DNA from: Leuctra nigra
Taxonomy: Eukaryota > Arthropoda > Insecta > Plecoptera > Leuctridae
Assembly (NCBI GenBank): GCA_934045905.1
Contig: OW203769.1
Span: 18,073,705-18,137,704 of the forward strand
Length of the DNA stretch: 64,000 bases
Direction of reading: 5' to 3'
Shown: piece after piece, positions 9,008-59,900 of the stretch
Numbering within the stretch: the stretch's first letter is position 1
How the letters are laid out: every line of letters starts with the position of its first letter
Notes under the pieces: generated by a model
Databases searched by the model: none
The model's input: the letters and a program-made list of their open reading frames with translations, nothing else
What the model was told of the DNA's origin: nothing
Program-made: the position numbers and the translations under genes

Positions 9008-10197
9008 ATATTTAATTTGCTTGACAATAGACAATATGGTTTCCAAAAAAACAAAAGCACTGCCATGTTACTCAATGATTTCTCAAACCATGTCAATGGT
9101 GCAATAAATGAAAAAAACCATGTTGTAGTAGTTTTCATTGACTTTACCAAGGCATTCGACACTCTTTTGCATAGTCGTCTGTTGGATACGTTGGAGAGAA
9201 TTGGAATCACTGGACCCATCCTGCAATGGTTTAGAGACTACCTGTTAGGAAGATCAATGTCTGTAAAGTTTAACCAGTGTTTTAGTAAAAAGGTAAATAT
9301 TTCAACTGGGGTACCTCAAGGTTCCATTCTGGGACCCTTATTGTATTTGATTTACGTAAATGATATGCTTAAAGTTGTCAAAGATTGTTCTGTTTATTTG
9401 TACGCCGATGACACTGCTCTGGTTTCCACGCATAAGGATTTCAATTCTGCTCAATGTTTCTTGTAAAATGACTTCAATAATTTATTACGATGGGCCCACG
9501 ATCACGGATTAACAATCAATAGTAAGAAAACAAAAGTTATGCATATTCACTCACCACATAAATTGCACTTAGATGTTAACCTTACCTTTCATAATAAAGC
9601 ATGTTTACATGCTAAATTCAACAATAGAACAAATTTATTTCAAGGTGTTTGTACATGCAACATGTCTATTGGAAATGTAAATACATATTTGTATTTAGGA
9701 GTTACTATTGACAAGCATTTTAAATGGGATAAACACATCGAAAAGGTTTGCAATCTCTTAAGAGCAGGAATGTATAGCCTCCGTATTTTAAAACCACTCG
9801 TTAATTACTCATCGCTTAAAATAGTTTATTTTGCTTTAATTGAATCAGTAATTAGATATGCTATACTTGCTTGGGGTGCCACAACGGACTCATTTCTTAA
9901 AAAAATTTATAGTATACAGAAGAGAATTTTTAAAATTATAATCCCCCCAAAAGATGCCTTGAAAAATTATCAGTTTATGACAGTTCATCAACTGCACCTT
10001 TACGTTTTCCTTATAACAAATTATTATTCTGATGAACATAAAGCACTCGCGCAACATAATAACGTAACAAGAAAGAAACATAAATTAGTAATGCCTCCCA
10101 ACATTCATAATTCATACGGAGATCAGCAGCGGTCATTTCTCATTCCCAAACTATTCAACACACTTCCACCCAGTTTACAAAATTAAGAAAAATTTAA

Positions 10198-11299: not shown

Positions 11300-11512
11300 C
11301 GTGTATATTTTCGTGGTATTTCCTCAGTCGACAGGCAAATGCTGGGAAGGTACCCAACTAATAGGCCACGACCGCCTCCTTCCCACCTTCCATCCTTACC
11401 TACTCTTCACCATCATCTCCCAATCATCATCATAATCATTCATCCGTCGCCATTAGCCTCGCTGCAGAACAGTGCGACGTTAAGCCCCAGACACAAAAAA
11501 AAACTTTTAAAC
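11300..11512 (+). mobile_element. tRNA-derived SINE, 5'-truncated
   Basis: Carries the body of the SINE family seen at 40338-40617 and 57741-58031 (CAGTCGACAGGCAAATGCTG, CCACGACCGCCTCCTTCCC, then ATCATCATAATCATTCATCC) and ends CCCCAGACA plus an A-run. The tRNA-like head with the B box is missing. Confidence 0.75.
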
Positions 11513-18095: not shown

Positions 18096-18392
18096 TTATT
18101 ATTATTATTATTATTATTATTATGAAAACCGCCCTAAAACACTGTTTTCACGGCCCTCTAGCGCGCAAAGGGCGTAACCTATTGTTCCCAAATTTGGTAT
18201 ATGTTGTAGGGTGGGCCATAGCTCGAAATTAAGATATATCGCAACAATGTGAGATTTTCCAATTTTAAGATCCAGTAGGCCGAAAATGCCACTTTGATGC
18301 TTACAGTAAAAGTGGGTTTGCTCCAGCCTTTTTAAATGAGTGTGTGCGCGCGCCGTACGACTTGGCTGGCGTGGAGCGACCGCTCCACTAGA

Positions 18393-21078: not shown

Positions 21079-21518
21079 CTTAACACGGTCTGAGAATGGA
21101 GAAATTCCCATGTGTCAATTACAGACCGCTAAAGGTGGAGGGTTGGACCCTCTGCCTGTAGTCTTAACACGGTCTGAGAATGGAGTTGGGTTAAACTCCC
21201 ATCTCCGTTTCAGACCGCTAAAGGTGGAGGGTTGGACCCTCTGCCTGTAGTCTTAACACGGTCTGAGAATGGATTTGGGTTAAATTCCCATCTCCGTTTC
21301 AGACCGCTAAAGGTGGAGGGTTGGACCCTCTGCCTGTAGTCTTAACACGGTCTGAGAATGGATTTGGGTTAAATTCCCATTTCCGTTTCTGACCGCTAAA
21401 GGTGGAGGGTTGGACCCTCTGCCTGTAGTCTTAACACGGTCTGAGAATGGATTTGGGTTAAACTCCCATCTCCGTTTCAGACCGCTAAAGGTGGAGGGTT
21501 GGACCCTCTGCCTGTTTC
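21079..21518 (+). repeat. 89-bp tandem array, about five copies
   Basis: Units start with TCTTAACACGGTCTGAGAAT at about 21080, 21162, 21251, 21340 and 21429. The first unit is diverged; the rest are almost identical. Each unit holds CCATCTCCGTTTCAG, which resembles a 3' splice acceptor, and a GAGGGTTGGACCCTC hairpin. Confidence 0.85.
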
Positions 21519-27768: not shown

Positions 27769-30444
27769 TTAGGAAGTAACATCAGCCAGTCTGCTGATTA
27801 GTGGATTTCCATGGTCTCCGAGTGCTGCGTAGAACGACTCTCTCTGATTTTCCATGACTTCGTGGAGATAGGCAAATCCTATATCTTGGTGTATGCTCTT
27901 CGTCCGGGTGAACATCGGAGTGCGCAGGGCGATCTTGAGGGCCCTGTTCTGCACCCTCTGCAGCATTGTTCTCGCTCCCGCTGAAGTCCTCTCGTACCAC
28001 ACTGGTGAGGCGTACGTCAGTGTGGGCACGATGACGCTCTGGATAAGAAGCAGCTTGCTGGTGAGCGGCATGGATTTGCTTTTGAGCAGTGGGAACAGCG
28101 CCGCCGTCTTCCCGTTGGCCTTGCTGGCAATCTTCTCAGCGTGGGCCTTCCAGGAGAGCTTGGCATCCAGGGTGACACCCAGGTAAACATTGCTGGGAGA
28201 CCAGGAGACATCTGTACCAGAGATGTTTATGGTAGGGGGTTGAAATTTCCGTCGCTTGGTGAAGAGTGTTGCCTCTGTCTTAGATGAATTTAGGGCTATA
28301 CGGTTCTCTGTATACCAGTGGCTGAGTACGTCTAATGCTTTTTGCAGAGGCGGGCCAAGTTGATTAGATGCCATAGATTGGCAGATGACTGCGGCATCGT
28401 CAGCATAGAAAGCTACTTCGGTGTCCGGAATGTTAGTTGGGATGTCATTGGTGAAGATGTTGAAGAGGATGGGGCTAATGATAGATCCCTGAGGAACTCC
28501 AGCCAGAATAGGCCTCGCTGAAGAACAGGCACCGTTGATGTGTACGGTGAAGGATCTTTGATTTAAATAGGAGTGGATGATATTGATTAAGTAGTTGGGG
28601 AATTGATATTTAATTAGTTTTTGTAGTAGGCCTTCATGTTAAACTCTATCAAATGCTTTAGCAACGTCCAGGAAAACTATACCAGTTCCTTTCAGCTTTT
28701 TAAATCCATCGTTTATCTTGTCAACCACACGTAGAAGCTGATGTGTTGTTGAATGCTTCTGTCGAAAGCCAAACTGCTCATTGATCAGCAGCTTTGTAGC
28801 GTTTGCGTGGCCTCTAATTCGAGCATGAAGGACCTTTTCAAAAAGCTTCGATAGTGATGAGAGGAGACTAATCGGCCGGTAATTTGCAGGGTCACGAAGA
28901 TTCTTTCCCGCTTTCGGGAACACAATGACTTTGGCTACTTTCCATTGGGTGGGGAAGTGTTGAAGACGGAGACTGGCATTAAATATTTCAAGGATACGTT
29001 CACCGGCAGGTATAGGAAGTTCTTTAAGAATCGTGTTTGTGATCTCGTCAATACCAGGTGCCTTGCCATTTGCAAGTTCATTTAGATATATAATTACTTC
29101 GTCCATAGAGCAGAGAACGACTTCATCATCTTCAGCCTGCGCCTTGTGTATAGCAAGATGGGTTCTTACTTCAGCCTCGATATGTGCTGATGAATTAGTC
29201 GGCGGGTTTGGGGAAAACTGATTTTGAAGCGAATCTGCTAGAACTTCTGCCTTATCATGTGGGCTGCATGCAAGGTGTGTACTACCTTGAATGGGTGGAT
29301 TTGGTTGTTTGCTTCTTGTCAGTCGTTTTGCCATGGACCAGAGTGGACGACTCCCTGGTTCTAGTGTGGCTACAGCATCTTCCCACCTCTCTCTCCTGTG
29401 GCGACGAATTAATTCCTTTACAGATCTGTCTAAGAGCTTATATTCTTCATGTAAATCAGGTGTTCTGAGCGCCTGCCATCTCCTACGTGCACGGTTTCGA
29501 GTGGCTATTGACAGTTTAATTCCACGTGGAAGATCAAATATTGTGCACCTTTTTGTATTACAAATGGGAACACTGATCGCTCTTGCTTCCATAATATTTT
29601 CCGTTAATTTATTTACTGCTAAATCTATATCCTGATGCGAATCAAGTGGTCCACTCTCCAACTTATTTGATAAATGCTCTCTGAACTTTTCCCAGTCTGC
29701 TTTTCTGTAATTGAATCGAATGATGGGATCAACGGTCTCGTATGAGTCCCCTACGCTCAAAAGTACAGGATTATGATCTGAAGACAATTCTAAAAGTGTT
29801 TCTAATTCAATGGAATGTCGCAGATTTTTCACCACCGCAATGTCAAGAACATCAGCTCTTCCTGTAGGGATATGAAGATGTGTCGCTTCTTGCGGTCCAG
29901 TCACAGTAAAGTCACTTATACGGGAGAGTGAAAGGAGAGTGCGGCCATTGGCGTTGACAACTCGCGAGTTCCAGGCTGTATGCTTAGCATTAAGGTCGCC
30001 ACCGAGAATAGTCGGGTAATTCGAGTCCATTAATGCTTCTATATCTGCTGTGAGAAGCTTAGTTCGCGGAGGACAATACGTGGCTATAAGCCGTAGTGGA
30101 CCCAGTTTAGTAAAAAGCAGGATAGCGGTAGCCTCTATTGATTTCGTTTCAGGTAAAACAATCTCGTAGTGACTTACTCGATTGTCAATGATGATTGCAG
30201 TCCCTCCTGCTCTCCTGTCTCCTGGACGATCAGTTCTATACACTGAGTGATTGGCAAGCTTAAGCTTGTCCTTAGGGTTAAGATGGGTCTCACAGACAAG
30301 GGCAGCCATTAAATTTCGTGATTCCATCAATAGAAGTAATTCGTCTTTACGAGAACTTATGCTATTAGCATTCCAAATGATTAGATTAATTGAATTAATC
30401 GCTGGCATTGCGATTTTGTACAGACAAAAGAAGAGTTGGCACAA
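27769..30444 (-). pseudogene. Jockey-like ORF2: APE endonuclease and reverse transcriptase, one internal stop
   Basis: An 892-codon frame encoding an apurinic-like endonuclease at the N-terminus (WNANSI near residue 24, CETHL, GGDLNAKHTAWNS, SSDHNPVLLS), then RT (GKAPGIDEI, ANYRPISLLS, EQFGFRQKHST, VFLDVAKAFDRV, AGVPQGSIISP, FYADDAAV at 679-686) and the C-terminal thumb with VYLGVTLD. A single TAA at 28641-28639 replaces the codon after AFDRV, where related elements usually have tryptophan. No frameshift is present. It would be inactive unless the stop is suppressed or is an assembly error. The start may instead be the M at 30408. ORF2 overlaps the end of ORF1 by 50 nt. Confidence 0.85.
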
Positions 30445-31549
30445 AACTTGCCAGAGACGTAATGATGGGGTGAATGTTCATATTAACTATAAAAATTGCA
30501 ATGCCGTTTATAAGGGCTATCCAATCAATAGTTGATTGTTGAGGTACTACCGGTTGTACGAGTTCAGGAAGAGCATTGAGTGGCCTCTCTGCTTCTTCTA
30601 AGGCAGTGGTGTTTGAGGACGAGGGTTGCTCTGGATTTATCTGAGTGTTCAAAACAGAAGCAAAAGTCCGTGGTTGCGCCAATGAGACTCGTGGCACGGG
30701 CGTGGGTTGCGTCTGAGTATTCCCTCGGTTATCATGCTGTGGAGAAGAGCCATCTTGCTGCTGTGGACGTCGGGCTCGAGTAGCATGACGAGTTGCTGCC
30801 TTGATGACATCACATCCTCGGTAGCAAGCGGCATGCTGCTGATTGCAGTTACAGCACTTTGCTGTTTCTGGTGACTCCTTACACTCCTTAACCTGATGCA
30901 CACCTCCACATCGAACACATCGTGGCTGGCGATGACAAAATTTGGCCGTATGACCCACTCTTTGACAATTAAAACATTGTATGACATTAATCTTCTTGCT
31001 CCGTGGGGCCTCGGTGGAGACCACGCAGTAGAGGAGTCTCTTGATTTGGCTGAGGTCCACTGGAGCCTGACCACTCGTACTCGTACGCAACTCAACTAAT
31101 GCCTTATGAGATTTCATATTTTGAATCACTATTGGTGGGATTTTATACTTCTTATCTGGCAAAGTCTCCGCCGTCATCGGGGTCGTGTCCATATCATTTG
31201 CACTTGCAAGCGACTCAAATGAGTTCTGCGTACGCACAAGGTTGATCACTCTCTTGGATGATGGGCCTGAAGCATCTGACCCAGATGATCGTGTGCTGGG
31301 ACGATCGTTACAATTACGACGCCTTTTATTTCCTGTCACCATCGTGAAACCATCGGGAACTATGTTCAAAGACATCTCATTGGTTGCAGACTCAACTTGC
31401 ATTAGCTCCGTGTCCGATTCATCACTAGACGAAAAATCATTTATAGAAGCTCCTATGGGTTGACTAGAAATGTTTATGACATTGTCTACAGCTGAAGGGG
31501 CATCTAGCCGGTTTACTTCATCACTCCAAACTTTATATATTCCACTCAT
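30395..31549 (-). CDS. Jockey-like ORF1 (gag-like nucleic-acid-binding protein)
   Basis: A 384-aa intact ORF. A Ser/Asp-rich N-terminal half with KRRR (75-78) is followed by three retrotransposon-type zinc knuckles: C192-C195-H200-C205, C211-C214-H218-C223, and C232-C235-H239-C242 with further cysteines. A three-knuckle cluster is standard for ORF1 of Jockey, I and R1 clade elements. It acts as the RNA-packaging protein of the retrotransposon particle. The C-terminal tail is Gln/Pro-rich and ends in a hydrophobic stretch. Confidence 0.85.
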   Translation of the reverse strand: MSGIYKVWSDEVNRLDAPSAVDNVINISSQPIGASINDFSSSDESDTELMQVESATNEMSLNIVPDGFTMVTGNKRRRNCNDRPSTRSSGSDASGPSSKRVINLVRTQNSFESLASANDMDTTPMTAETLPDKKYKIPPIVIQNMKSHKALVELRTSTSGQAPVDLSQIKRLLYCVVSTEAPRSKKINVIQCFNCQRVGHTAKFCHRQPRCVRCGGVHQVKECKESPETAKCCNCNQQHAACYRGCDVIKAATRHATRARRPQQQDGSSPQHDNRGNTQTQPTPVPRVSLAQPRTFASVLNTQINPEQPSSSNTTALEEAERPLNALPELVQPVVPQQSTIDWIALINGIAIFIVNMNIHPIITSLASFVPTLLLSVQNRNASD

Positions 31550-33629: not shown

Positions 33630-33840
33630 TTGGCAGAGTAGTTGGGGCAGTAATGCACTCTGGAGGTCACGGGTTCGATTCCCGCGGACGTCCTTCCTGA
33701 CTGAGGTTTTGTCGTGGTTACCTCAGTCGCGAGAGAATGCTGGGAAGGTTCTCTACTGATAAGCAACGTCGACCGGCTCCTTCCCACCTTCCATCCTTAC
33801 CCATCCTTCATCGTCATCGTCATTATAATCATTCATAAAA
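33630..33840 (+). mobile_element. tRNA-derived SINE, diverged copy
   Basis: A tRNA-like head contains B box GGTTCGATTCC (33672-33682), followed by CGTCCTTCCTGACTGAGGTT and GAGAATGCTGGGAAGG, and it ends in a TCATCGTCATCGTCATTATA-type tail. It is the most diverged copy of the family in this window, hence probably an old insertion or a subfamily. Confidence 0.7.
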
Positions 33841-34850: not shown

Positions 34851-34857
34851 ATATAAC
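34851..34857 (+). promoter_or_regulatory. opsin core promoter TATA box
   Basis: TATATAA sits in a GC-rich island just before the inferred first exon. Transcription would start about 30 nt downstream (~34881). About 50 bp upstream, CCTAATGAAC (34791-34800) has a TAAT core in the position where insect rhodopsin promoters carry the RCSI/P3 homeodomain site. The match is only partial. Confidence 0.6.
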
Positions 34858-34880
34858 CGACGTCGCGACGCCCTGGAGAC

Positions 34881-35009
34881 GAGTCCGAGGCGTCTGAGAC
34901 TTCACTGGCGGGTTTGACGACGTCGTTGGCAGTTAGTCTGGAGTAGTTCGACTTTTACAGGACGATTTTCTTCCAGTCTTCTCGGACGTGCTGATATTAT
35001 TCCTACAAG
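34881..35009 (+). other. opsin non-coding first exon (inferred)
   Basis: Between the TATA box and a strong donor (ACAAG/gtgagt at 35010) there is ~129 nt of GC-rich sequence without an in-frame start for the opsin. The coding exon is preceded by an acceptor (ttccag, 37602-37607) directly before C-ATG, so a 5' UTR exon is required and this is the best candidate. RNA evidence is not available here. Confidence 0.55.
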
Positions 35010-35950
35010 GTGAGTGCCATTGGGGTAGGAAATTCTGAAAATAACTTTTGGGTGAATAAATTAACTTTTAAAATATTTACATATCCAAGAATTTTTTGCA
35101 AATTTCGTAACTGTGTTACTATTTTAAGGGCTCCCAACAAGCAAAGCTTATTTGCTCTTTCCTGGTACTATAAACTTTATTGATAAACACTGTCATTATA
35201 AAATGGATGCAATAGACACAGTAACATTATAAGAAATTATTAATTATGATTGTTATATAATTAATGATTATGATAATATGATAATGATATTACAATATGG
35301 CATTATATGAATACGATTATATGATATGATTGATGACAAATATGATATAAATGAGATATTCTTGATTCAATAGTTCCACTTTTAACCACATAAGATAACA
35401 CAGGGAGACATGAAGTAATCCCTGAATATCGGAATTAAATTGCTCCTAAAATTTCAAGAGGAATTAAAAGATATTGAAAATAGTCTCAATATATTTGGTC
35501 ACCGGCCAAATAAGAAAGAAAAAGTGTATACCTAATGTGATAAATTTGCCATAAATATGTCAAAGCTGCTTTGCAAATATAAACTAATTTGGCATTACTT
35601 CAATTATAAGATCATAATTGGACGGTAAGGTGTAATGGGTTTGTGGTGTTGTATAAGGTATTGTTTCATCAGTAATAATGTTTAGGAATTACAACGAATT
35701 ACAACATTGCTGGAGCCTTGTCCCACTTTAAAGATGATGAATTAAGGCGATTCTGGTTATTCAAATCAGAATCAGTAAGATACCAGGTTTCCCGTGATGT
35801 GAGTGTGGCTTCTGAAAATTTTAAACTAACCTTCTGAGAATTATATTTCTTGTCTCTCGTGTTACAAGTATCTGGCTACATGACTATTTTTTTGTATTTA
35901 TTAATTAATTTTATTCAGCAGTATAGTGCACAAACATTGTTTGCATAAGC

Positions 35951-36952
35951 TAGGGATGGAGAAAATATCGATATATCAATATATTATATCGATATCAAAA
36001 AAATATCGAAATATCGATACCTGAATATATTGAATATCGATATATTGAAATATCGAAATATCGATATATCGATATATTGAAATATTGAAATATCGAAATA
36101 TTGAAATATCGAAATATTGAAATATCGAAATATTGAAATATCGAATATTGAAATATCGATATATTGAAGCTTTACCGCATGATACAATTATGTTCTTAAT
36201 TGAAGTTTATACCTACTATGGCAAAATAATTCATATTTGCAGTGCAGCGTTTACAAGATTTATGGACAATTTCTCAGATTATTCACATTTTCTTTCTTAT
36301 CTGGCCGGTGAGCGAGAATTTTTCTGGCAAAGACTTCGTAAATGGGACGTAAATTATCTGTGACAAAAACTCTAATAAATTACTTATTTATACAAATAGA
36401 ACGCTGATTTCGAAGTGAAGTCTACACACTGTGTTCTGACAGTTATTACATCAGTTAAATGAAGGATATATTAACAGTAAATATGCCCTATTTCGAATTT
36501 AAAAAACTAAATATTTTTAATCTAGAGAGTTTTCACGACCCCAATTTCTTATCAGAATTATCGTGAATGACATTTTATAACATAATCTAGTTGGATAAAT
36601 CATATATTTCAATTCAAAAATGTAAAAAATTGAATTTTATAAAAATAATTTTTTCTCCCATATACCAAGTCTTTGCCAGAAAAATTCCAGCGGCCGCGAC
36701 CCTATATTATTTTGGAACGGCTGTGTTATTTTTTTTTTAAATTTTCTTTTGAAATTCCTAGCAGTTTTAGGAGCAATTTAATACATTCATACGATATATC
36801 AATATTTCCATACCTATACTTCTAAATATTATTTCCATATCAATATTTCGATATTTCGATATTTCAATATTTCAATATATCGATATATCGAAGTATCGAT
36901 ATATAAATGATATCGATAGTCGATATCAAAATCCAAGTTCGCTCCATCCCTA
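35951..36952. mobile_element. hAT-type non-autonomous element with ATATCG satellites
   Basis: Inverted ends TAGGGATGGAG/CTCCATCCCTA are flanked by an 8-bp duplication, GCATAAGC (35943-35950) and GCATAAAC (36953-36960), with one mismatch. Just inside both ends are ATATCGATATTGAAATATCG-type arrays facing each other (~35965-36170 and ~36840-36925). It lies in the intron between the opsin non-coding exon and the first coding exon. No transposase. Confidence 0.8.
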
Positions 36953-37608
36953 GCATAAACATTGTCATAATATGAGATAAAAATAGTACATGCCATGCTA
37001 CTATTGTAAAATAGAACAATAGTACATGCTAAGTAGATATCTTGAGCATGTTGGGCGATGACAATGCCAATGATGCCACAAGGGTGAAGATAACCTCATT
37101 ATTGGCACTCCACGATCCAACTTTCTTTCTAGATATCTTCTTATAGGAACTTTGTTCAAACATCTTTATTATATAAAACATAGTAGGTGAACTTACAGTT
37201 TCTAAAGTTAATAATTACGATGCCTGGTTTACGCCACCACTTGTGTAAATGAAACTTAATACTAAATAGTAATGTATTAAATTTTACATAATTGTACAGA
37301 GAAACGAAAAAGTATCATGTGATACATTTTAAAAAACCTGCAAAACGTATTGTTTGTTTTATGGGAACTAAAGACATGGTCGACGACTACCGAAGTATGA
37401 AAAACTAAATATATCTGTGAACATTTTGATAACATAAACGAATTTAAAAAATCACAGATTATTAAAAAAAGAAACACTCTCTCTTCCAAAAATTCCAAAA
37501 ATTCTCAAAATAGTTATTTTTTTATTCAGTGAAAACCTCACATAGAATTGAAACATGATACCTATTAAAGACCTCTAGAGTGTAGATTAACGACGCACGT
37601 GTTCCAGC

Positions 37609-48930
<11,322 letters not shown>

Positions 48931-48942
<12 letters not shown>

Positions 48943-49203
48943 ACCATCTGCGCATGTGTCATACGTGCGCGGAACAGCTGCGCATAGGGCACACCTGCGT
49001 AGACCATCTGCGCATGTGTCACAACGTGCGCGGAAGAGCTACGCATGTGTCACAACGTGCGTAGACCATCTGCGCATGTAATACACCTGCGGAGACCATC
49101 TGCGCATGTGTCACAATGTGCTCGGAACAGCTGCGCATGTGACACACCAGCGTAGACTATCTGCGCATGTGTCATAACGTGCGCGGAACAGCTGCGCATG
49201 TGA
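48931..49203 (+). repeat. minisatellite spanning the opsin stop codon and 3' UTR
   Basis: Repeated CACCTGCGTAGACCATCTGC, GCATGTGTCA and CGTGCGCGGAACAGCTGCGC blocks with a ~50-60 bp period, about five degenerate units. The first CACCTGCGTAG contains the stop codon. Confidence 0.85.
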
Positions 49204-49306
49204 CAAGTGAACATTCAATGATATTTTATATGTGGCCGTTATGATAATATGGACAATGATTATAGAGTGGATATTTTATGGTAGATATTTTTTTCTATTG
49301 ATTGAG

Positions 49307-49312
49307 AATAAA
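49307..49312 (+). terminator. opsin polyadenylation signal
   Basis: AATAAA 365 nt after the stop, followed by a GTGTGTTTTTATTG downstream element at ~49336. Cleavage is expected near 49325-49335. Confidence 0.75.
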
Positions 49313-49489
49313 TCCCAGCATATAAAAATGTATACGGTGTGTTTTTATTGACTCCCTGTTACTCCTTGTTATCAAAGAGTCAACGATTCTGCAGTACCAA
49401 CCATAAAACACAATGTAATTGTTGACTGCAGTCAAATAATAATTGATAGAACTTGAATTCAAGATTCCAAAACTGTGCAACGCAAAATC

Positions 49490-49875
49490 GAGAAAATGAT
49501 TTTTTGTACACCCGAAATTTTCGAAATCTGTCCATTGGTTCAAAATAAAAAAAATATAATTTCTCATTGGTTGATCCGTTCAAATTGAAATGTTGCCGGG
49601 TCATTAGGACTACAACTTTACCATACACATTTTCAGCCCAATCGGTCAAGTTAAAATGTCAAAATCCCTGAAATAGCTGTCAAAATACATCGAAAAGTAC
49701 CAAATTGACGGAGAAGAGATCTGTTATTCAATTATTCTAAAGTGTGTATATGGGAATTGACAATTTGACATGCAAATCAGGAAAATGTATAGTACCTATC
49801 TCTTATTGAGTGGCCCGTTTGCTTAGAGATGTTGTAGCTACATATCGGTGCTCGCTCATCAACGCTTTATTATTC
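49490..49875 (+). mobile_element. H2-like fragment between the two genes
   Basis: Blocks such as TTTTGTACACCCGAAATTTT, ATCTGTCCATTGGTTCAAA and the terminal TGCTCGCTCATCAACGC resemble the H2 body and tail. The terminal hairpin is incomplete after CAACGC. Confidence 0.45.
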
Positions 49876-50909
49876 TTAATGCCATTATCCGTCAGAGGTT
49901 CTAGGTTTAATATTAAATTTCCTTTCATGTCTTGATTATTATTTATTCCTGAAAATTTTAAGAAAATATTGTTTAATATCAACCCTAAATATTGGTATTT
50001 AATTTAAGCCAAAATGTTTACAAAACTTATTAAGGAGTAGATTTTCAGAAAATATTATTTGTTGAAATGTACGACTTTTATTAATTATTTCAACATTTCA
50101 ACTATATTTTTATGTAAAAGTTTCATCAAATGTCTTGTAACTTCCAACTCTCGAATTATATTGAGTTTTCAATATGATGTCTTCGGAAGATTAAGAAATT
50201 TTAACACAGGAGGTATAGGAAAATTATTTAGAATTTGGCGCCTAACTTTTAAAAACGTACGGCAAGGTGTATATAAAAAAATCTTAATAAATACCTCTAT
50301 GTCTAATACACATAATATAAGTTTTTGGAAAAAATCTATCGGTGGAAAATAGTTTAAATCTAATATTTACTAGGAAACTTACCGTGTTTTTTCGACTTAC
50401 CATGTTAAAGATAGGGCTAACTCAAATTTATAAAGTGATATATCTTGGAAATTAGTTCGGCTACCCCACTTTTTCTTGCGTTTATATGGTACACAAGGAG
50501 ATTATCTAAAATATCTATCGGAGACCTCTACTTGGGTATCCCCCCTTAAGTGTAAATATAAGTGTAAGCCAAATGTTAAAGTTTAATTTCGAAGCTGATT
50601 GAAAACAAATCTGACCTTCATTCCGAAAAGATAAACGTCAAAAAATACTAAGAAAATACTATAATTAGTTCATTACCATCGCAAACAACGTTACAATTCT
50701 CACTAATTTCAACCCAAACGTATAATTACATGTCGTCAACTCATAAATATTTGTTGTCAATAAGGACAGACAACATACAAGTAATATCAGCTGGTAAGAC
50801 GGTATCAGAAAGTGTGATTACGACGTTGATAGTAGGTGTAAGGTTATCGCATGAATATTGAATAGACAATGAGCTAGTCGCATTGCTGGTGCAAGTTCGA
50901 GTGAAGACA
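49876..50909. other. intergenic region upstream of the cysteine-rich gene
   Basis: AT-rich; no gene. The cysteine-rich gene's promoter should lie near its right edge, but no convincing TATA box or initiator is seen. Confidence 0.4.
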
Positions 50910-51102
50910 ATGGGACTACTTTGTTTGGCGCTTCTTTGCATTTCTGCCTGGGGTACAGCCGCTGAGCACAATGCGAATCTCTGCAATAACACATATCTAC
51001 TTTCGCTCGGGCTAGCCCCAGACATTCCCATAGACTCGACTGCGGGATTAGCTAACTATACGTTGCCGAAGACTGTCATGGATTTCATTCCAACTCAATG
51101 CG
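50910..51102 (+). CDS. cysteine-rich gene exon 1
   Basis: The ATG was chosen at 50910 because it starts directly on the hydrophobic signal peptide. Upstream codons in the frame have no ATG. Ends CAA-TGC-G/gtgagt. Contains NNT and NYT glycosylation sites. Confidence 0.8.
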
Positions 51103-54100
51103 GTGAGTATTTATATTTCATGGATTTACATCGCCGAAGGGAGAGGGTTAATTTTATTCCAATTACATTTGTTTTGATGCATTTTGAGACACAATACATC
51201 CAATATTTAGGGAAACCTGCACGAGTACCTCGGTCCTGCCGAAGGCCAATTCTGTTTTTTTAATTTTTTTATTAAAACTTGTATTCTCATACAGATGGAG
51301 GTAGATGGACAAAGATGGCGGGCCGTATTTGACCCGGTCCTGATCTAGTCCCTTTGTGTAAAAGTATTCATGAGATCGGGAAATTGTCTTGCGAAGTTTC
51401 TTCACATCAGTTGAGATCTCATCTTGTGTTGCAACAAACATCAACAACAGCTCCATAATATGGAAAGTTATTTCGGACTCATGGATTTTTTAATGGAAAC
51501 AATGTTTCAGGTGCGAACAACACCTGTCCCCCGATGAATATTCGCAAGTTGTATTTGGAGATGGGCTGCGTTCCGAGTAAAAAACTCTCAAAATTCTGCT
51601 GCCCAGACAATTACGATTGCGCAAGTAAGTTTTTTTAAATTTTATCCTCAAACTCGAAAGAAGTTAAACCCCTCAACGCAAAGAGCTAATTAATGATCTT
51701 GTACTTCTTGGAGAGGTTGCACGGTCACAAATAATTAATAGACAGGACTCACGTTGTTATTTTAGAATCATCACCTCATCTAAGGTCAAAAGTAAAAAAA
51801 TCACAATACCAATTTTATTGTTAATGTGCTATGTACAGTGATGGAAATATATTCGGTAAACGATCCTTCTCCTTTCCATGCATATACGTTATTTTTTTAT
51901 TTTATTTATTTATTTATTTATTTAGCTTGAAAGCTATTTTTCATTACAACATACATTTACAAAACAGGAAATTCATTATAAACAAATGAAGTACATAAAA
52001 TTTTAAACATTTCAATATTTTCTTCTTCTTTTACCTTTCTACCCAATCTATTATAAAGTTGAATACCACTATAAAATACAGATTTTTGTGTCCTCTGTGT
52101 TTGGATGTGTGTTTGGATTTTTGTGTCCAGATTTTTGTGTGATTTTAGGCTCCATCCCCTCGACCCGTAACACTAGGGGGGGGGGGGGAGGGGGGAAAGG
52201 AGCGTATACCGAATATATTTCTATGACTGTACACATGCTGTACACTGAGCACTTTACATCCAGTTATTCCATTTGAGTAAAATGTTACTTTGGTTTTGTG
52301 GGATCCGTGTATTAGCGTTTTCCCCTGGCCGCACTGGGCCGCACTAGTTTTGCACTCAGCTTTGAGTTTTGTAAGGTGACGTCATTTCAGTGCAAACCTA
52401 GCCAGTGGAAAACGCCTATTGTCTCCACATTATTCTCTTATGTAAACAGCTCACGAATGTTATTATACAATCTTGTACAATGCAATAATCGATCTTATGT
52501 TTACATCAAGGTGTGTTTGCAAAGAGATCCAAGACACAGTGCCAATACAAAGGAAAACTCTACAAAGTCGGCGCCAAGTTGACAGTCGAAGGTCTGCCGT
52601 GTTACACTGACATCGTGTGCGCCGTGAAAAACAAGTGAGTAGCTCGAATAACATTGGGGCTGTGCATAAAGGACGTCACGCTGAAAATGAAATATTTTGA
52701 CACCCCCCTTCTCCCCCTGTCACGCTGTGTCACACTTTTTGAGACCCCCCCCCTCAAAGAATGTCCCAAATTTGTCTCTACCCCCCTTTTATATAGAATA
52801 TTTTTTACTGTAAAATGTATCCTAATTTATCGTTTTTAGCGAAATTTCCGGTCCCGACATATCAACTGAAATTTAAAATGTTTGAAAATATCTATTTCAA
52901 AACGTGACGACCTACGGCCTCCAGTACCCCCCCCCCCTCCCCCCTGTCACACTGTGTCCCATACTGGTGCACCCCCCTCCCACCCCCCTGAAGCGTGACG
53001 TCCTTTATGCACAGCCCCATTGAGATGAGAAGCTTGTCACAGTGGCAAGAAAAGTTATCACTTATGTAATCGTACCCCTGCTTCTAAGGTCACTCACGGA
53101 CATGTCTTGGGCGTCTTAATGTCTTATATGTATATCCGCAGGGTTACAGGCTTCACATTCACAAAGACGAAGTGTCCTGCTGTCAAACCCAAGGCCAACA
53201 CGATGCAACTCTACAGCTTCACCAAGTGCTGCTCAACGGGAAGCAGAAGCAGTGAGTTCAGGAGAATTTACCTTCATGAACTATTTCGAACAACTTCCTA
53301 CATTTAGCAAACTATTTCTCCAACTCATCGCCTTGCAAAATGCCATGGAAGCTTCATCATTTAATTAATAAATTATTGGTACCTTCTTCAATGATTGCCA
53401 TTGAAGCGGCACTTGAAAAAGGCGAAAATACTTTTGAAAACTCACATTTCGGCCACTAGGTTACGCGTCCTGTACTTCTTTTGGCGACATCACTGTCAGA
53501 CTCGTTGCCTATTGACCACATCAAGCACAGCCCAGTTGGACGGACTTGTCTTCCAACATAAACTTTCAGATAAAATCTGTCTTGGCTGAGTGGTAACGCT
53601 CTGAACTTGTATTCCGGAGGCCCGGGTTCGATTCCCGCGGTCGTCCTTCCTGACTGGGGTTTTTTCGTGGTATTCCCTCAGTCGACAGGCAAATGCTGGA
53701 AAGGTACACTACTAATAGGCCACGACCGCCTCCTTCCCACCTTCCATCCTTACCTATACTCTTCACCATCATCTCCCAATCATCATCATAATCATTCATC
53801 CGTCGCCATTAGCCTCGCTGCAGAACAGTGCAAGTCCCAGACAAAAAAAACTGTCTGCTTAATGTTTATGACCCATATGAATGATCATTTGCTTGCTCGC
53901 AGCTGTTCTGACTGACAAGGAATTCAAGTGCAACTATGACAACCTCAGCTATCCGGTTGGAGCTCAGATTCCTTCCCCCACGCCGTGCGAGATCTGTATC
54001 TGCCACAAGGGATTCGACGGTAAGGATCATACTTTCCGGCTATGATATTCTGTTTCGCACAAAGTTGAGTGGTCTCGGTATATATCGTTCACCCGACTTA

Positions 54101-57100
54101 TTTTTGTAGTTACTTCGAGACTTTCGGTCTAGTTTTATATGAAAATGTGAGAACTGACATTCAGGCGCGTAGGAAGGGCGGGGGGGGGGGGGGAGTGGGG
54201 GTCAATGACCCCCCCACTTTTCATCCTGACACCCCCAGATATACAAAAATGTTGATAAAGAGATTTAAAAATGCACAGATTTGCTCCATTATGAGGTTGA
54301 ATTCTCAAAATTTTCCCAAGTTTGACAACTAATAAAACTGATGTATTCCAATGAGACAATGACTCATTTGTCCAACTTGATCATCCTCATGAGTCATGAA
54401 TAAAGTTTAATATTACTTATAAGTTAAACTAGGATACCAAAACAAATACAGCCCCACATATGACCTGTTATCTTATTGCTTATTGTTTTTTTTTGTTGCC
54501 ACCTTTTTCAGAGGAATTTCAAAATCGATTCATAATCGATTCTCCTTTACTAGAAATTCAAAAAATTCCCTGCGGGGCCAATCGGGATGTTATCAAATAA
54601 TAAAATTTTGCATATCACATATTTTAATTTTCGTTGAAAAGGATGCCAAAACAGCTTCAAATTCGATTTTGTTATTGAAAAATTCAAAAAATGCCCTGCG
54701 GGGCCATTGAGGATTTGATCAAATAACGATTATAGATTTTTGTGCATTTTGTCTCATGTTTCCCGAAGAATATTACAAATCACACATTTTAAATTTCTTT
54801 GAAATGGATGCCAAATTAGCTTCAAATACGATTATTTTGTATTAAAAACTCAAAACATTCCCTGCGGGGCCAATGGGGATTCCATAAAAAAAAATAGTTA
54901 CAGATTATGTTACATTTGTATAAAGTTTCCACAGAAAATGGCATATCACACATTGTACATTTCTTTAAAAAGAATGCCAAAATAGCTTCAAATTCGATTA
55001 TTTTGTATCAAAACTTCAAAAAAGGCCCTGCGGGGCAAACTGGGTGGTGAGCCCCCCAGACCCCTTGAAACGGCGTACCACCTTTTCCTCACATTCATCG
55101 ATCCCCGATAATTTTGACCCCCCCACACAAAATGAAGTTCCTACGCGCCTGCTGACATTCAGTTCCATCAAAAGTCATTAACCCGAGGAAGTCTGAAATC
55201 CCTTTTTGTTTTGTTTAATCATTGACTTACGCTCCATATGGGATTTGTGACTGCTATATTGTTGTACTGTGTCAGGTTTCCCTGCAATCTGCTCAAATGA
55301 TAGAAATCTCAGCCAAACACGTAAAGAATTACCTTGGTCTGTACGTAAGAACGGGTCGGGATTCTTTGGGAGTTATTCTAAATTTCCTTGTCGTCTCGTA
55401 TCAATTGATAAATTTATCACGTGAAACGAGACGACAAGAGAATTTAGAATAGCCCTCCTTGTCACTATTAGAGATGACAGTTGCAAATCCCATATAGAGC
55501 GGAAGTCAATGGTTTAGTTTTATACTCAAGCAGTTTCTAGCTTTTTCATTCATGTGCCATTTTTTTAGGGCCAGTAGTACCATTAGTTTAAGCTACAGTT
55601 AGCTTAAAAGCTCCTCTTCAGAAAACTAGGTTATTATAATTATAAAGTTCCGGAGCTAGTTTCCTCAGTTTAAATTAACCTCAGGCTACAATGACTGCAG
55701 TTAATTTAAGCTCTGTCGCAGTATTTAATAGTAAAACACCACATTTCCTAAGTGGAGCTTAAACTAGCTGGAGCTTAAACTAATGGTGACTAATGACCCC
55801 TTAATGCGCCTCAGCGTCAGTTGAAATATCCACTGACAATACATACTGTCATTTGAATGTAGTGCATATATATCAATGATTTCACAATGAGCTGAGGATT
55901 TTGATGATCTGTTTCTGGTCCAGGAACGCTGAGGAGTCCATGGTGCCAGATCCGAAGCTGCGGGTACGAACTGGATGCGCACAACAACATCTTCAAGGGG
56001 CTGGCTCCCCTCATAGGCCTGGGCTCGTGCTGCCCTTACCGCTGGCAAGCACGTAAGTCACGTCTATGTCATGCAAGGGTCTGGCTCCCCTCATAGCTCG
56101 TGTTGCCCTTACCGCTGGCAAGCACGTAAGTCACGTCTGTATGTCATGCAAGGGTCTGGCTCCCCTCATAGCTCGTGCTGCCCTTACGGCTGGCAAGCAC
56201 GTAAGTCACGTCTATGTCATGCAAGGGTCTGGCTCCCCTCATAGCTCGTGTTGCCCTTACCGCTGGCAAGCACGTAAGTCACGTCTATGTCATGCAAGGG
56301 TCTGGCTCCCCTCATAGCTCGTGTTGCCCTTACCGCTGGCAAGCACGTAAGTCACGTCTATGTCATGCAAGGGTCTGGCTCCACTCATAGCTCGTGTTGC
56401 CCTTACCGCTGGCAAGCACGTAAGTCACGTCTATGTCATGCAAGGGTCTGGCTCCCCTCATAGCTCATGTTGCCCTTACCGCTGGCAAGCACGTAAGTCA
56501 CGTCTGTATGTCATGCAAGGGTCTGGCTCCCCTCATAGCTCGTGTTGCCCTTACCGCTGGCAAGCACGTAAGTCACGTCTCATGCAAGGGTCTGGCTCCC
56601 CTCTTAGCTCGTGTTGCCCTTACCGCTGGCAAGCACGTAAGTCACGTCTCTATGTCATGCAAGGGTCTGGCTCCCCTCATAGCTCGTGCTGCCCTTAGCG
56701 CTGGCAAGCACGTAAGTCACGTCCCTATGTCATCAAGGGGCTGGCTCCCCTCATAGCTCATATTGCCCTTACCGCTGGCAAGCACGTAAGTCACGTCCCT
56801 ATGTCATCAAGGGGCTGGCTCCCCTCATAGCTCGTGTTGCCCTTACCGCTGGCAAGCACGTAAGTCACGTCCCTATGTCATCAAGGGGCTGGCTCCCCTC
56901 ATAGCTCGTGTTGCCCTTACCGCTGGCAAGCACGTAAGTCACGTCTGTATGTCATGCAAGGGTCTGGCTCCCCTCATAGCTCATGTTGCCCTTACCGCTG
57001 GCAAGCACGTAAGTCACGTCTCTATGTCATGCAAGGGGCTGGCATGACGGGAATAGTTACCTACACTGAACTAACATTTTTGTCTGGGGCTTAACGTCGC

Positions 57101-59900
57101 ACTGTTCTGCAGCGAGGCTAATGGCGACGGATGAATGATTATGATGATGATTGGGAGATGATGGTGAAGAATAGGTAAGGATGGAAGGTGGGAAGGAAGC
57201 AGTCGTGGCCTATTAGTAAGTTACCTTCCCAGCATTTGCCTGTAGACTGAGGGAATACCACGGAAAACCCCCAGTCAGGAAGGACGGCCATAGTGCTTCA
57301 AAGTGCTGTACACACACTTTTCATAGTTAACCTCTGACGTCACTCATTTTTTGACACCTTGGTGTTAGCATAATGCAGAATAGCTGTCATATCTGGGTTT
57401 TGGTGATAGGTAGATAGTATTCATGGTTACTTGGATAATTGTACCTACTATAGGCTTTGGAGATAACGTTAATGTGCAAAATAATCACTTATTTTACTGA
57501 AATACTACCATTAACCTTCATTTGTATTAGTTAAATTTGAACTGCGTCAAACTTGTTATTATAAAGACCCCAACTTGACCCGCAGGACATTTGTTGGTTT
57601 TTGACACTTTCAAATTTTTATTTCTAATTGTTTGTTTTTTGGTAAAATGATGTTTTCCTGACATCCAGGGGGGGGGGGGGGGCAAGCACCCCCTCTGGAC
57701 GACCATGACTTCGATCCATTATCAGTTCAAATATGAGTCAACGGAACAGGTTGGGTGAGTGGTTAACGCTCTGAACTTGTATTCCGGAGGCCCGGGTTCG
57801 ATTCCCGCGGCCGTCCTTCCTGACTGGGTTTTTTTTCGTGGTTTTCCCTCAGTCGACAGGCAAATGCTGGGAAGATACCCTATACCAATAGGCCACGACC
57901 GCCTCCTTCCCACCTTCCATCCTTACCCACTCTTCACCATCATCTCCCAATCATCATCACAATCATTCATCCGTCGCCATTAGCCTCGCTGCAGAACAGT
58001 GCGACGTTAAGCCCCAGACAGAAAAATAAAAAATATAAGTCATCTCCAGCCAACTGGCATTGACAACCAACTTTGGGACTCAGATTGTTCCTTTTTTAAA
58101 CTAAAGTGTTCTTATTCTTTTAGCAACCACGGCGGATATGTTGCTACCGAACCCGGTTAAAGCTCCAGGTGAGTTAGCAACACAGGTGTTTCTCGCACTC
58201 TAATCGCCATTGTGATTCCAAAGAAATCATGTCCAATATCTGATAAGTCTGATCATTGATCAATGATTGTAAAGCGCAGTGCACTCAGTTTAAATTCACA
58301 AAGTTCTTGATTGAGTTTGGAATAAGATCAGCACATGGTTAGAAAGTAGGAGTATGATATACGTTCGGAAAAGAGCATTGCACACTTGGCCAAACAAAAT
58401 TGATCGTTCAAAAAATCTGATAGGCTGATAAATGTAAGATCGCACCATCAGAAGTCAGTCTAAGCGATCTCATTGTCTCACTCTAGTAGGTGACCTCACA
58501 TTTCAATGATAATAACAAGCTTTGTTTGGTTTGGGACATGACCAGCAGTCATTCAAATTTGTTCAACGATCAATTTTTGTTTTGCCGAGTGTACCCATAA
58601 TTTCTAGAGGTTTTCGAATATTATTCGGTAATTTCGAATTATTCGAATACATTTTATTTCGATTTTCGATTCGATATTCGAAAATGTAGTTTGGAAAATG
58701 TGAAGTTTCGATGTAATTCATGTGTTCAAATCTCAAAATTATACTGCTCTTGTATTCGTTTTTTTAAATTTTTTAATTTAGTTTTCTAATATAAGACATA
58801 CAAAGACGTATAGTTGTCATTGTGTGCTTGACTATCATTCATTATTGGAATTGAGGAATGTTTGCTAGTACCAAATTTTATTAGATATATTTGACTTTTA
58901 TTAAAGTTCGTTCACGATAAGAATATCACTGACGTTTTAGTCGATCACGTCGTTCATTGGTCAGTCACTTGAACACTGCCCTGTCAATGGCAAGACTTTC
59001 TTCTTTGTATTATTGAAATTGTATAAATTATGTCAAATACACAATTTTTAATAGTAGTTAATATTATAAAAATTCAATAAAATTGATTTATTTTTATCTA
59101 CAGCCGTATTATACACATTTTTTGATTATTATATTGATATTTATATGTTTAGGTATACGTTCACTTGACTACGGTAGTACACGTCGCCATTACGTCTTGC
59201 TATTCTAATCGTGAATGAACTTTAGATATCATTTCATCAGAATTATGTTTCCGAATAATTCATTCTCGAAATATTTGTGCCAGTTTTTCTACATTCTCAT
59301 TCGAAGTGAGGTGAATGTTGAGATTATATTTTGTTATACATAATACCGAATAGACTCAAAGAGCAATGTGAAGTTTTAATAATTTTTTTTATTCATTATT
59401 TCCCATAATCAGTTGATTAGTTTTCGACATTTCACTCCTCAACCAAAACAAGCTGTACGTCACACGCCGTGTTCCCTGTGTGGATGCATAGAACTGGCTC
59501 TGGCTAACATTATCTATACGGCCCGACTCGGCGTGTGACGTCAAATTGTGTTTCATGGACAGCTACAATCTACCAAACTTTGTAAATTCGTTCCTTTGGA
59601 AACTATTCATCACACAACAAAAATAATACCACAGCTGTCTTCAACAACATCTTAACTTTCATAAAATATTTATTATTCTAAAATCTAACCTTCGCTTCTC
59701 TTCCCTATTCCCTGCTACTAGATGCCACCGGGGCCTGCGCGTTCGGCACCCAGAAGATCAAGTTCGGCGATGGACTGGTGACTGCGATGACAAAGTCTTG
59801 CGCTCTGTGCGGATGCTGGATCGGTCCAATGCTGCAGTGCGGGTGGCTAAGCGACTGCAACGCCGCGTTCGCGACTCTTGTCAGCAACGGTAGTCAGTAA
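50910..59900 (+). CDS. secreted cysteine-rich protein with VWC-like modules, eight exons
   Basis: Exons 50910-51102, 51511-51624, 52511-52634, 53142-53251, 53903-54019, 55924-56052, 58124-58168 and 59722-59900 join in frame to 336 aa, all GT-AG. The first ~19 residues (MGLLCLALLCISAWGTAA) are a signal peptide, so the protein is secreted. About four cysteine modules follow: exons 1-2 (CPPM ... FCCPDNYDC), 3-4 (QCQYKGKLYKVGAKL ... CYTDIVC ... KCC), 5-6 (FKCNYDNLSYPVGAQI, PCEICICHKGF ... SCCPYRW) and 8 (CAFGTQKIKFGDGL ... CALCGCW). The C-x-Y-x-x-x-x-Y-x-x-G pattern followed by CxxCxC and CC is that of von Willebrand factor C domains. Most introns are phase 1, usual for shuffled extracellular modules. 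I do not recognise the specific gene; extracellular matrix, cuticle-associated or growth-factor-binding roles are possible but unproven. Exon 6's donor is multiplied 14-fold. Confidence 0.8.
51511..51624 (+). CDS. cysteine-rich gene exon 2
   Basis: Acceptor tttcag, donor GTAAGT. Encodes ANNTCPPMNIRKLYLEMGC and FCCPDNYDC, completing the first cysteine module. Confidence 0.8.
52316..52415. mobile_element. 100-bp MITE in intron 2 of the cysteine-rich gene
   Basis: Ends GCGTTTTCCCCTGGC and AGCCAGTGGAAAACGC pair. GGCCGCACTGGGCCGCACTA inside resembles the unit at 19965-20318. Confidence 0.55.
52511..52634 (+). CDS. cysteine-rich gene exon 3
   Basis: Acceptor atcaag, donor GTGAGT. Encodes SVFAKRSKTQCQYKGKLYKV to CAVKNK. 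The acceptor is weak (poor pyrimidine tract); it was chosen because it is the AG in this stretch that keeps phase and frame. Confidence 0.7.
52656..53018. mobile_element. DNA-transposon derivative with 27-bp inverted ends
   Basis: GGGGCTGTGCATAAAGGACG plus TCACGCT is repeated inverted at the right end, almost perfectly. Flanking ATT on both sides gives a 3-bp (or CATT 4-bp) duplication. Interior has C-rich CACCCCCCTT blocks facing each other. The superfamily is not assigned. Confidence 0.8.
53142..53251 (+). CDS. cysteine-rich gene exon 4
   Basis: Acceptor ccgcag, donor GTGAGT. Encodes VTGFTFTKTKCPAVKPK to SFTKCCSTGSRS, closing the second module with CC. Confidence 0.8.
53584..53855 (+). mobile_element. 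tRNA-derived SINE in intron 4
   Basis: The head GGCTGAGTGGTAACGCTCTG leads to B box GGTTCGATTCC (53625-53635), then the family body and an A-run ending near 53850. CTGTCT flanks both ends, suggesting a short duplication. Confidence 0.85.
53903..54019 (+). CDS. cysteine-rich gene exon 5
   Basis: Acceptor ctcgcag, donor GTAAGG. Encodes the first half of the best VWC-like module: FKCNYDNLSYPVGAQIPSP, PCEICICHKGFDG. Confidence 0.85.
54162..55151. mobile_element. hAT-type element with exact 8-bp duplication and internal tandem units
   Basis: Ends CAGGCGCGTAGGAA and TTCCTACGCGCCTG, duplication CTGACATT at 54154-54161 and 55152-55159. The interior holds about four ~130-bp units with CCCTGCGGGGC after AAATTCAAAAAA. 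990 bp, no transposase. Intron 5 of the cysteine-rich gene. Confidence 0.9.
55222..55516. mobile_element. MITE with ~30-bp inverted ends
   Basis: Left CATTGACTTACGCTCCATAT is paired with right ATATAGAGCGGAAGTCAATG. A solo end of the same family lies at ~43402-43430 in the opsin intron. Confidence 0.7.
55570..55798. mobile_element. MITE rich in TTAAGCT motifs
   Basis: GGGCCAGTAGTACCATTAGT TTAAGC at the left is mirrored by GCTTAAACTAATGGTGACTA ATGACCCC at the right. Internal AGTTTAAGCT motifs recur in both orientations. Confidence 0.65.
55924..56052 (+). CDS. cysteine-rich gene exon 6
   Basis: Acceptor gtccag, donor GTAAGT at 56053. Encodes TLRSPWCQIRSCGYELDAHN to GSCCPYRWQA. This is the only copy in the array retaining the GGCCTGG segment needed for the frame. 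Confidence 0.85.
55998..57050 (+). repeat. ~73-bp tandem array of exon 6 end plus donor, 14 copies
   Basis: GCTGGCAAGCACGTAAGTCA is repeated 14 times from 56041 to about 57010. Units after the first carry CTCATAGCTCGTGTTGCCC, lacking the GGCCTGG of the true exon. Small length variants (TCTATGTCATGCAAGGGTC, CCCTATGTCATCAAGGGGC) form sub-blocks, and the CCCTATGTCATCAAGG type is clustered in units 11-13. Reading through the first donor reaches an in-frame TAG in the next unit. Confidence 0.97.
57079..57292 (-). mobile_element. tRNA-derived SINE, head missing
   Basis: Minus-strand SINE body and tail. It is truncated at GGCCGTCCTTCC, so the tRNA-like head and B box are absent. Confidence 0.8.
57741..58031 (+). 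mobile_element. tRNA-derived SINE, complete copy
   Basis: Head CAGGTTGGGTGAGTGGTTAA, B box GGTTCGATTCC (57795-57805), body and A-rich tail. An 11-bp duplication AATATGAGTCA/AATATAAGTCA (57730-57740, 58032-58042) has one mismatch. Lies 92 bp upstream of exon 7. Confidence 0.88.
58124..58168 (+). CDS. cysteine-rich gene exon 7
   Basis: A 45-nt linker exon encoding TTADMLLPNPVKAP, with no cysteine. Acceptor ttttag, donor GTGAGT; phase 1 on both sides so it could be skipped without a frameshift. Confidence 0.75.
58169..59721. other. cysteine-rich gene intron 7
   Basis: Contains TTCGAATATTCG-type simple repeats at ~58610-58685 and the MITE at 58911-59225. A TTGACGTCACACGCC inverted motif pair (CGTCACACGCCGTGT at ~59458, CGGCGTGTGACGTCA at ~59529) suggests another small MITE of ~85 bp. 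Confidence 0.5.
58911..59225. mobile_element. MITE with ~25-bp inverted ends
   Basis: TTAAAGTTCGTTCACGATAA is paired with TCGTGAATGAACTTTA at the right. 315 bp, AT-rich interior. Confidence 0.65.
59722..59900 (+). CDS. cysteine-rich gene exon 8 (last)
   Basis: Acceptor tactag. Encodes the last module, DATGACAFGTQKIKFGDGL, SCALCGCWIGPMLQCGWLSDC, ending NGSQ-stop. A hAT-like end (CAGGCGCGTAGGAAGG) begins three bases after the stop codon. Confidence 0.8.

Follow-up and report, generated by a model that had tools for sequence, protein, structure and literature searches.

The locus and its tandem arrays

We analyzed a 64,000-nucleotide stretch of the genome of Leuctra nigra (Plecoptera; assembly GCA_934045905.1, contig OW203769.1, positions 18,073,705 to 18,137,704), hereafter the window, in which an opsin gene and the gene that follows it (gene 2) carry tandem arrays that cross splice sites and a stop codon (Table 1). 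The splice sites of both genes were modeled from sequence and reading frame. The opsin, which we take to be of the long-wavelength type, matched Pfam 7tm_1, and its best solved relative was Kumopsin1 (E 4e-134), presumably a jumping-spider protein. The gene 2 product is cysteine-rich and probably secreted; it matched no Pfam family and no PDB entry. With the exon-side copies of the splice arrays in use, both genes have complete open frames (376 and 336 aa).

Arrays were detected with Tandem Repeats Finder (TRF), and splice-site copies were counted by anchors containing the site. The original prediction had named five boundary-linked arrays, and this was borne out for four of them: A crosses a donor, C an acceptor, D the stop codon, and E a second donor. 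The fifth, array B, crosses nothing, and its TCGTCA microsatellite is common genome-wide (1302 + 1715 exact places for TCGTCATCGTCATCGTCA vs. 0 + 1 for the reversed control). All 18 donors of A lie at an exact spacing of 131, the acceptors of C at spacings of 125, 146, 146, 146, and 146, and the donors of E at 69-75. For A and E, the anchor counts agreed with the copy numbers given by TRF, and no copy lacking the site was missed there. As had been predicted, the exon-side copy would be the functional one: in A, C, and E it is the sole copy giving a full reading frame, and all the others lead to an early stop (17/17 in A, 5/5 in C, and 13/13 in E). We infer that splicing uses the outer site.

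Within the arrays, the first copy of E stands apart (10.2 mean differences vs. 2.7-5.2 in other copies), that of C is 125 bp long and that of A deviates at its left end; the final copies in A and E are like the inner ones. The 13 intronic copies of E are all missing the same 7 bp present in the exon and so likely derive from a single decayed copy. The opsin stop codon (48940-48942) lies within the first unit of array D, which may have supplied it. The C-terminus of the opsin reads EEKAPPA (48928-48942); in long-wavelength opsins of insects, the sequence often stops near EEKA. At array B, the exon-2 frame is open across the entire TCGTCA tract (41754-42539; 261 aa), and retention of the intron would therefore add a long low-complexity stretch. 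A 327-bp inverted-repeat element (39966-40292), with 82-bp ends 93% alike and no clear target-site duplication seen, adjoins the right edge of array A. A short tract at the exon-3 acceptor, array F, was absent from the original list.

Table 1. Genes, selected exons and tandem arrays of the locus, in window coordinates.
Feature	Position	Strand	Description
Long-wavelength-type opsin gene	37609..48942	+	6 coding exons, 376 aa
Opsin coding exon 1	37609..37730	+	3' end formed by the first copy of array A, the usable one; donor at 37731
Array A	37629..39968	+	131 bp x 17.9; 18 donors GTGAGTAGAGG; spans exon-1 donor into intron 1
Array B, TCGTCA microsatellite	42020..42534	+	Begins 10 bp past exon-2 donor; no boundary crossed
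Array F, 7 bp x 5 tract	44109..44144	+	Adjoins exon-3 acceptor (exon start 44146)
Array C	47103..47968	+	Units of 146 bp except one (125 bp); the last of 6 acceptors is the usable one
Opsin exon 5	47862..48139	+	Starts within the last copy of array C
Array D	about 48936..49205	+	30-31 bp units; last codons and stop into 3' flank
Gene 2	50910..59900	+	8 coding exons, 336 aa
Gene 2 exon 6	55924..56052	+	3' end is the usable first copy of array E
Array E	56023..57043	+	Units 69-75 bp; 14 donors; spans exon-6 donor of gene 2

The regular supply of splice signals could also be read as a function, with the arrays serving as a reserve of spare splice sites or exons. Each copy of A offers CATGCAG, 99 nt, and GTGAGT, i.e., a symmetric phase-2 exon of 33 residues in frame, which would give hypothetical in-frame products of 409, 442, and 475 aa, and the pyrimidine content of the pseudo-acceptor (0.53) falls within the range of the 12 modeled acceptors (0.41-0.94). 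Against this, the spacer between such exons is 32 nt, likely too short for splicing unless a copy is skipped, and the corresponding mini-exon of E (29 nt, in a unit of 73 with a mini-intron of 44) would not be symmetric. We regard a functional reserve as very improbable.

A second assembled version of the locus

The genome (536 Mb, 144 contigs, of which the window's contig is C8) was searched with the opsin, and the locus was found again on C68, a contig of 172,661 bp that is probably the other haplotype. Over matching blocks of 1.5 kb or more, with the arrays counted in, the two were 96.4-99.9% identical. All six opsin exons are identical, as are six of the eight gene 2 exons, the remaining two having one base difference each, and both frames are open on C68. 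With the exons thus nearly unchanged, the arrays differ in copy number: C8 and C68 carry 18 and 17 donors in A, 6 and 7 acceptors in C, and 14 and 15 donors in E, respectively, while array lengths are 303 and 364 bp for D, 535 and 475 bp for B, and 48 bp in both for F. Written as strings of unit types, A reads abbbcdbbbdbbbefefb on C8 and abgbcdbcdbbbbefeb on C68, C reads abcdde and abcddfe, and the intronic units of E read abaacdefghiij and klaacddmefghij. The order efef in A suggests changes in multi-unit steps.

Since the arrays occur on two contigs with different whole-unit counts, they are real and change by whole units. An assembly artefact, in which reads were stuttered or misjoined, might be suspected from the near-identity of the units. 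There are also precedents: one of the amphioxus boundary repeats known as mirages was misassembled in a draft genome (PMC3087553), and a psyllid assembly was reported to contain false tandem duplications, although these were of heterozygous loci and not of short units (PMC11659978). However, C8 and C68 both carry the arrays, with differing whole-unit counts and variant units, and arrays of this kind also lie in genes on contigs C2, C6, C7, C10, and C13. An artefact is therefore, in our judgment, highly unlikely.

Arrays at gene boundaries in the window

In the window, nine minisatellites reach a period of at least 20 and a score of at least 100, and four of these span a boundary, which has a probability of 0.0005 under uniform placement of one founding unit and of 0.04 when whole array lengths are placed. 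Similarly, of the 24 array loci, 6 are no more than 10 bp from a boundary (1.04 expected; P = 0.00045). All tests within the window were post hoc, and the sample beyond the window described below is the better one. Composition accounts for part of the excess: the window has a GC content of 38% (arrays collapsed), its exons lie among GC-rich islands, and for the five GC-rich arrays, four of them at boundaries, 0.77 would be expected there on GC-matched sequence, or 1.36 once wholly exonic sites and transposon frames are excluded. Depending on the exclusions, the GC-matched P value is 0.0016, 0.0025 or 0.013. The sole GC-rich minisatellite of the window off modeled exon edges is an 89 bp x 4.4 array at 21122-21515 (GC 0.51).

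Recurrence at other genes

For the opsin search, 109 of 142 candidates were scored, with 85 matches at E ≤ 1e-5. Beyond C8 and C68, these comprised 4 further opsin-like loci and 23 loci of other G protein-coupled receptors (GPCRs), and all 27 were examined, with sites assigned by sequence and frame. Two opsin-like loci (L015, L016) and three GPCR loci (L021, L022, L030) were scanned first; the other 20 GPCR loci were chosen unseen. Boundary arrays were found at two of the four opsin-like loci, namely a 93 bp x 6 array at a donor of an opsin on C7 (L046; C7:3386001-3396000) and a 125 bp x 14 array at an acceptor of an opsin-like gene on C10. The opsin-like loci near 15.04 Mb of C7 and on C9 had no boundary array within the 8 and 10 kb examined. 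L046 also has an ATCCTG microsatellite just past its exon-1 donor and a 38-bp array shortly after its stop codon.

The 23 GPCR loci contained 10 arrays (period ≥ 20, score ≥ 100) in 82.6 kb, a count that excludes shorter tracts, including one at the frame end of L057. Six of the ten coincide with an exon edge or the end of a frame: four are at acceptors (L051, two exons of L058, and L064), one is at a donor (L054), and one is where the frame of L047 ends; the other four are off boundaries (upstream of L047, and at L049, L056, and L063). With two exact edges per locus, 0.67 would be expected (P for at least six, 7e-6). Considering that the second exon of L058 was recognized solely through its array, the P value for at least five is 1.6e-4, and in a conservative test with wide edge zones 5 of 10 fell in the zones vs. 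1.99 expected (P = 0.03). Each of the five arrays with GC ≥ 0.45 was at an exon edge, four of them within the zones and the fifth at the second exon of L058, compared with one of five AT-rich arrays. Among sugar transporters, 9 loci were scored of 255 candidates and all 9 fetched; one, L070, had a boundary array (65 bp x 14.6, at an acceptor). The expectation of the original prediction that arrays lie at gene-structure boundaries above uniform chance thus held beyond the window (6 of 10 GPCR arrays, 1 of 9 sugar-transporter loci). In every splice array at these other loci, the exon-side copy continues into the exon. Units are not always mostly exonic, as might have been supposed: the exon fraction measured in 10 arrays was 0.17-0.85, with indels shortening some.

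A further test used the donor word AGGTAAGT, which was found three times at 58-88 bp spacing at 49 places in the genome, all belonging to 8 array loci. The reversed word gave 177 such places, and the first 100 of these belong to 11 array loci, three being copies of one repeat. The test therefore showed no excess over its control and decides little, as the control is itself the commoner word (6-letter cores, 53 vs. 21 in the window and 134 vs. 34 in gene loci). One of the AGGTAAGT array loci, on C12, would encode NIAEVGPYVY ahead of the donor, which we take to resemble CD36-like proteins.

These counts bear on whether a few arrays of an array-rich genome have simply landed on exon edges by chance. 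The density of arrays (24 loci per 64 kb), the weaker P values under whole-length placement and in the zone test beyond the window, and the lack of excess in the donor-word test are what coincidence would lead one to expect. Yet the pattern recurs in loci found by homology alone, and each of the five GC-rich GPCR arrays coincides with an exon edge, the exon having been recognized in one case through its array. We consider coincidence quite unlikely.

Origin of the arrays

Short direct repeats were found at the edges of two arrays. In C, TGCAAG[C/T]TGGC occurs at the intronic and exonic edges (10 of 11 bp alike), and in E, the 12-bp repeat CAAGGGGCTGGC occurs at both edges (12 of 12 alike), the pattern that a first duplication between short direct repeats would leave. 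Among 4000 shuffled boundaries, 0.15% had an exon/intron word of at least 11 bp in exact agreement. The microhomology-mediated duplication originally proposed is thus consistent with C and E, but no such repeat was identifiable for A. Among the 21 splice sites that A, C, and E do not cross, two are spanned by a 10-bp direct repeat, vs. 0.8% of shuffles; these could possibly be seeds or remnants of arrays. The repeats are GACCGCCATG and TCATGGATTT, at about 46256-46265/46311-46320 and about 51076-51085/51118-51127, respectively, with no minisatellite at either. The possibility that sequence upstream of exon 1 gave rise to A was considered and rejected, the shared CACGTG not being significant (P = 0.23).

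Taken together, we think it probable that the arrays are exon-boundary minisatellites produced by duplication at short direct repeats, turnover of units, and selection for an intact exon-side copy. A segment of ~30-165 bp straddling a splice site or stop codon would likely have been duplicated between short direct repeats, and the array would then likely have grown and shrunk by slippage or unequal exchange among units. Because splicing at any of the remaining copies would lead to a premature stop, selection would likely retain one intact copy at the exon edge, i.e., the first donor or the last acceptor. Duplications wholly within an exon would mostly be purged, and since exons in the window lie among GC-rich islands and arrays inside them would mostly be removed by selection, the surviving arrays would be those at the edges.

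Several observations weigh against this account. Besides lacking a direct repeat at its edges, array A has an 18-bp linker that was not found in the array flanks, and its right edge adjoins an inverted-repeat element. The differences between the two versions of E reach its first intronic units and so extend beyond the interior. C68 could be a segmental duplicate rather than the other haplotype. Small tandem tracts do occur within open frames, at L047, L055, and L063. The excess that remains after GC-matching needs selection, or exon sequence, to bias array survival, and the mechanism of the amphioxus mirages is called unclear (PMC3087553).

The main competing idea is that a process tied to transcription, R-loops or splicing creates duplications at exon/intron junctions. 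It would account for boundary arrays above uniform expectation both in the window (4/9, P = 0.0005) and in the GPCR sample (6/10), and some excess does survive GC-matching. The link to R-loops suggested by the original prediction found no support, however, since GC skew has no common sign across A (+0.09), C (-0.01), D (0.00), and E (-0.12). Nor did the arrays contain the G-quadruplex (G4) pattern searched for, and only unit D folded clearly better than its shuffles (z = -2.20, compared with -0.34 for A, 0.05 for C, and -1.47 for E); R-loop, G4, and hairpin origins were accordingly rejected. Array loci were also no more frequent for the donor word than for its reverse (8 vs. 11 in the first 100 of 177 places), and the arrays of D and L047 are at frame ends rather than splice junctions. 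Considering the results of GC-matching, skew, and the donor word, we prefer ordinary duplication plus selection, and a junction-focused process is a minority reading that we hold to be unlikely. Its wider form, in which such a process acts throughout the genome in this insect lineage, keeps adding spare splice sites and proto-exons next to many of its exons, and thereby continually supplies new introns and exons in a way observable between the two haplotypes of one genome, is doubtful.

Boundary arrays were present at several percent of exon edges in our small sample (32 loci outside the opsins). Their interest comes from this frequency, from the stop-codon form, and from the comparison of two versions of one locus. 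They offer an accessible system for exon-edge duplication, for how splicing would proceed amid up to 17 identical decoy sites, and for whether these arrays contribute to intron or exon gain. For gene annotation, loci with boundary arrays are likely to be mis-modeled.

Other features of the window

No systematic search was made for window genes beyond the opsin and gene 2. Reverse-transcriptase open frames were present at 14443-18147 (minus strand, 1235 aa), 27772-30477, and 8960-9463. A dispersed repeat resembling a short interspersed nuclear element (SINE) occurs at 40333-40617, 53582-53831, 57077-57289, 57741-58031, 33659-33838, and 11308-11503, with copies shortly after arrays A and E on their downstream side; it may have a tRNA-like origin, although ARAGORN finds no tRNA. 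Neither Rfam (gathering threshold) nor ARAGORN gave a match within the window. Opsin intron 2 contains a ~400-bp palindrome (43604-44008; 93%).

Comparison with known systems

A minisatellite with multiple splice donors was reportedly described in IFI6 (6-16) by Turri in 1995, and its units offer repeated donors, as do those here. In IFI6, two downstream repeat units serve as donors (PMC4526556), whereas here the inner donors would give stops. Introns can also arise in humans from internal tandem repeats located where exons meet introns (PMC2812944). These are variable boundary minisatellites like ours, but they belong to paralogues in segmental duplications, have units averaging 30 bp, and come with documented alternative transcripts (PMC2812944). 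A Drosophila case likewise involves a tandem duplication that spans or adjoins an intron-exon boundary and inherits splice signals (PMC2891723); the frames in our window are explained without any new intron. A potato gene gained an intron through a boundary-crossing duplication (PMC4974935).

The closest counterparts are the mirages of amphioxus, known from Adh3 and the globins BflGb6 and BflGb9 (PMC3087553) and from PGBD5, whose lancelet gene bears similar repeats (PMC3902484). Together with the human exon-intron repeats (PMC2812944), they contradict the original statement that no system of this kind had been described. Mirages have units of 10-160 bp, lie at donor and acceptor boundaries, carry splice signals in their copies, differ in copy number between haplotypes, have edge units that escape homogenization, are spliced normally, and show somatic instability (PMC3087553, PMC3902484). 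The arrays here match them in most features tested. Both kinds of boundary are hit (donors by A, E, and L054; acceptors by C, L051, L058, L064, and L070), units are 131, 146, and 73 bp in the window and 52-163 bp elsewhere, and splice signals are present in 18 copies of A, 6 of C, and 14 of E. Copy number varies likewise between C8 and C68, provided that C68 is the other haplotype, and the escape of edge units is seen only in part, in the first copies of E and C. In the literature consulted, mirages have so far been an amphioxus curiosity, and no report of such arrays in insects stood among the literature matches listed (titles and abstract openings). The Leuctra arrays are real, recurrent, and different between two assembled versions, and they represent a known kind of structure. 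Unlike the mirages of amphioxus, they occur in an insect, reach up to 18 copies, are found at stop codons as well and several to a gene; what is new is the insect host, the stop-codon arrays, and the frequency.

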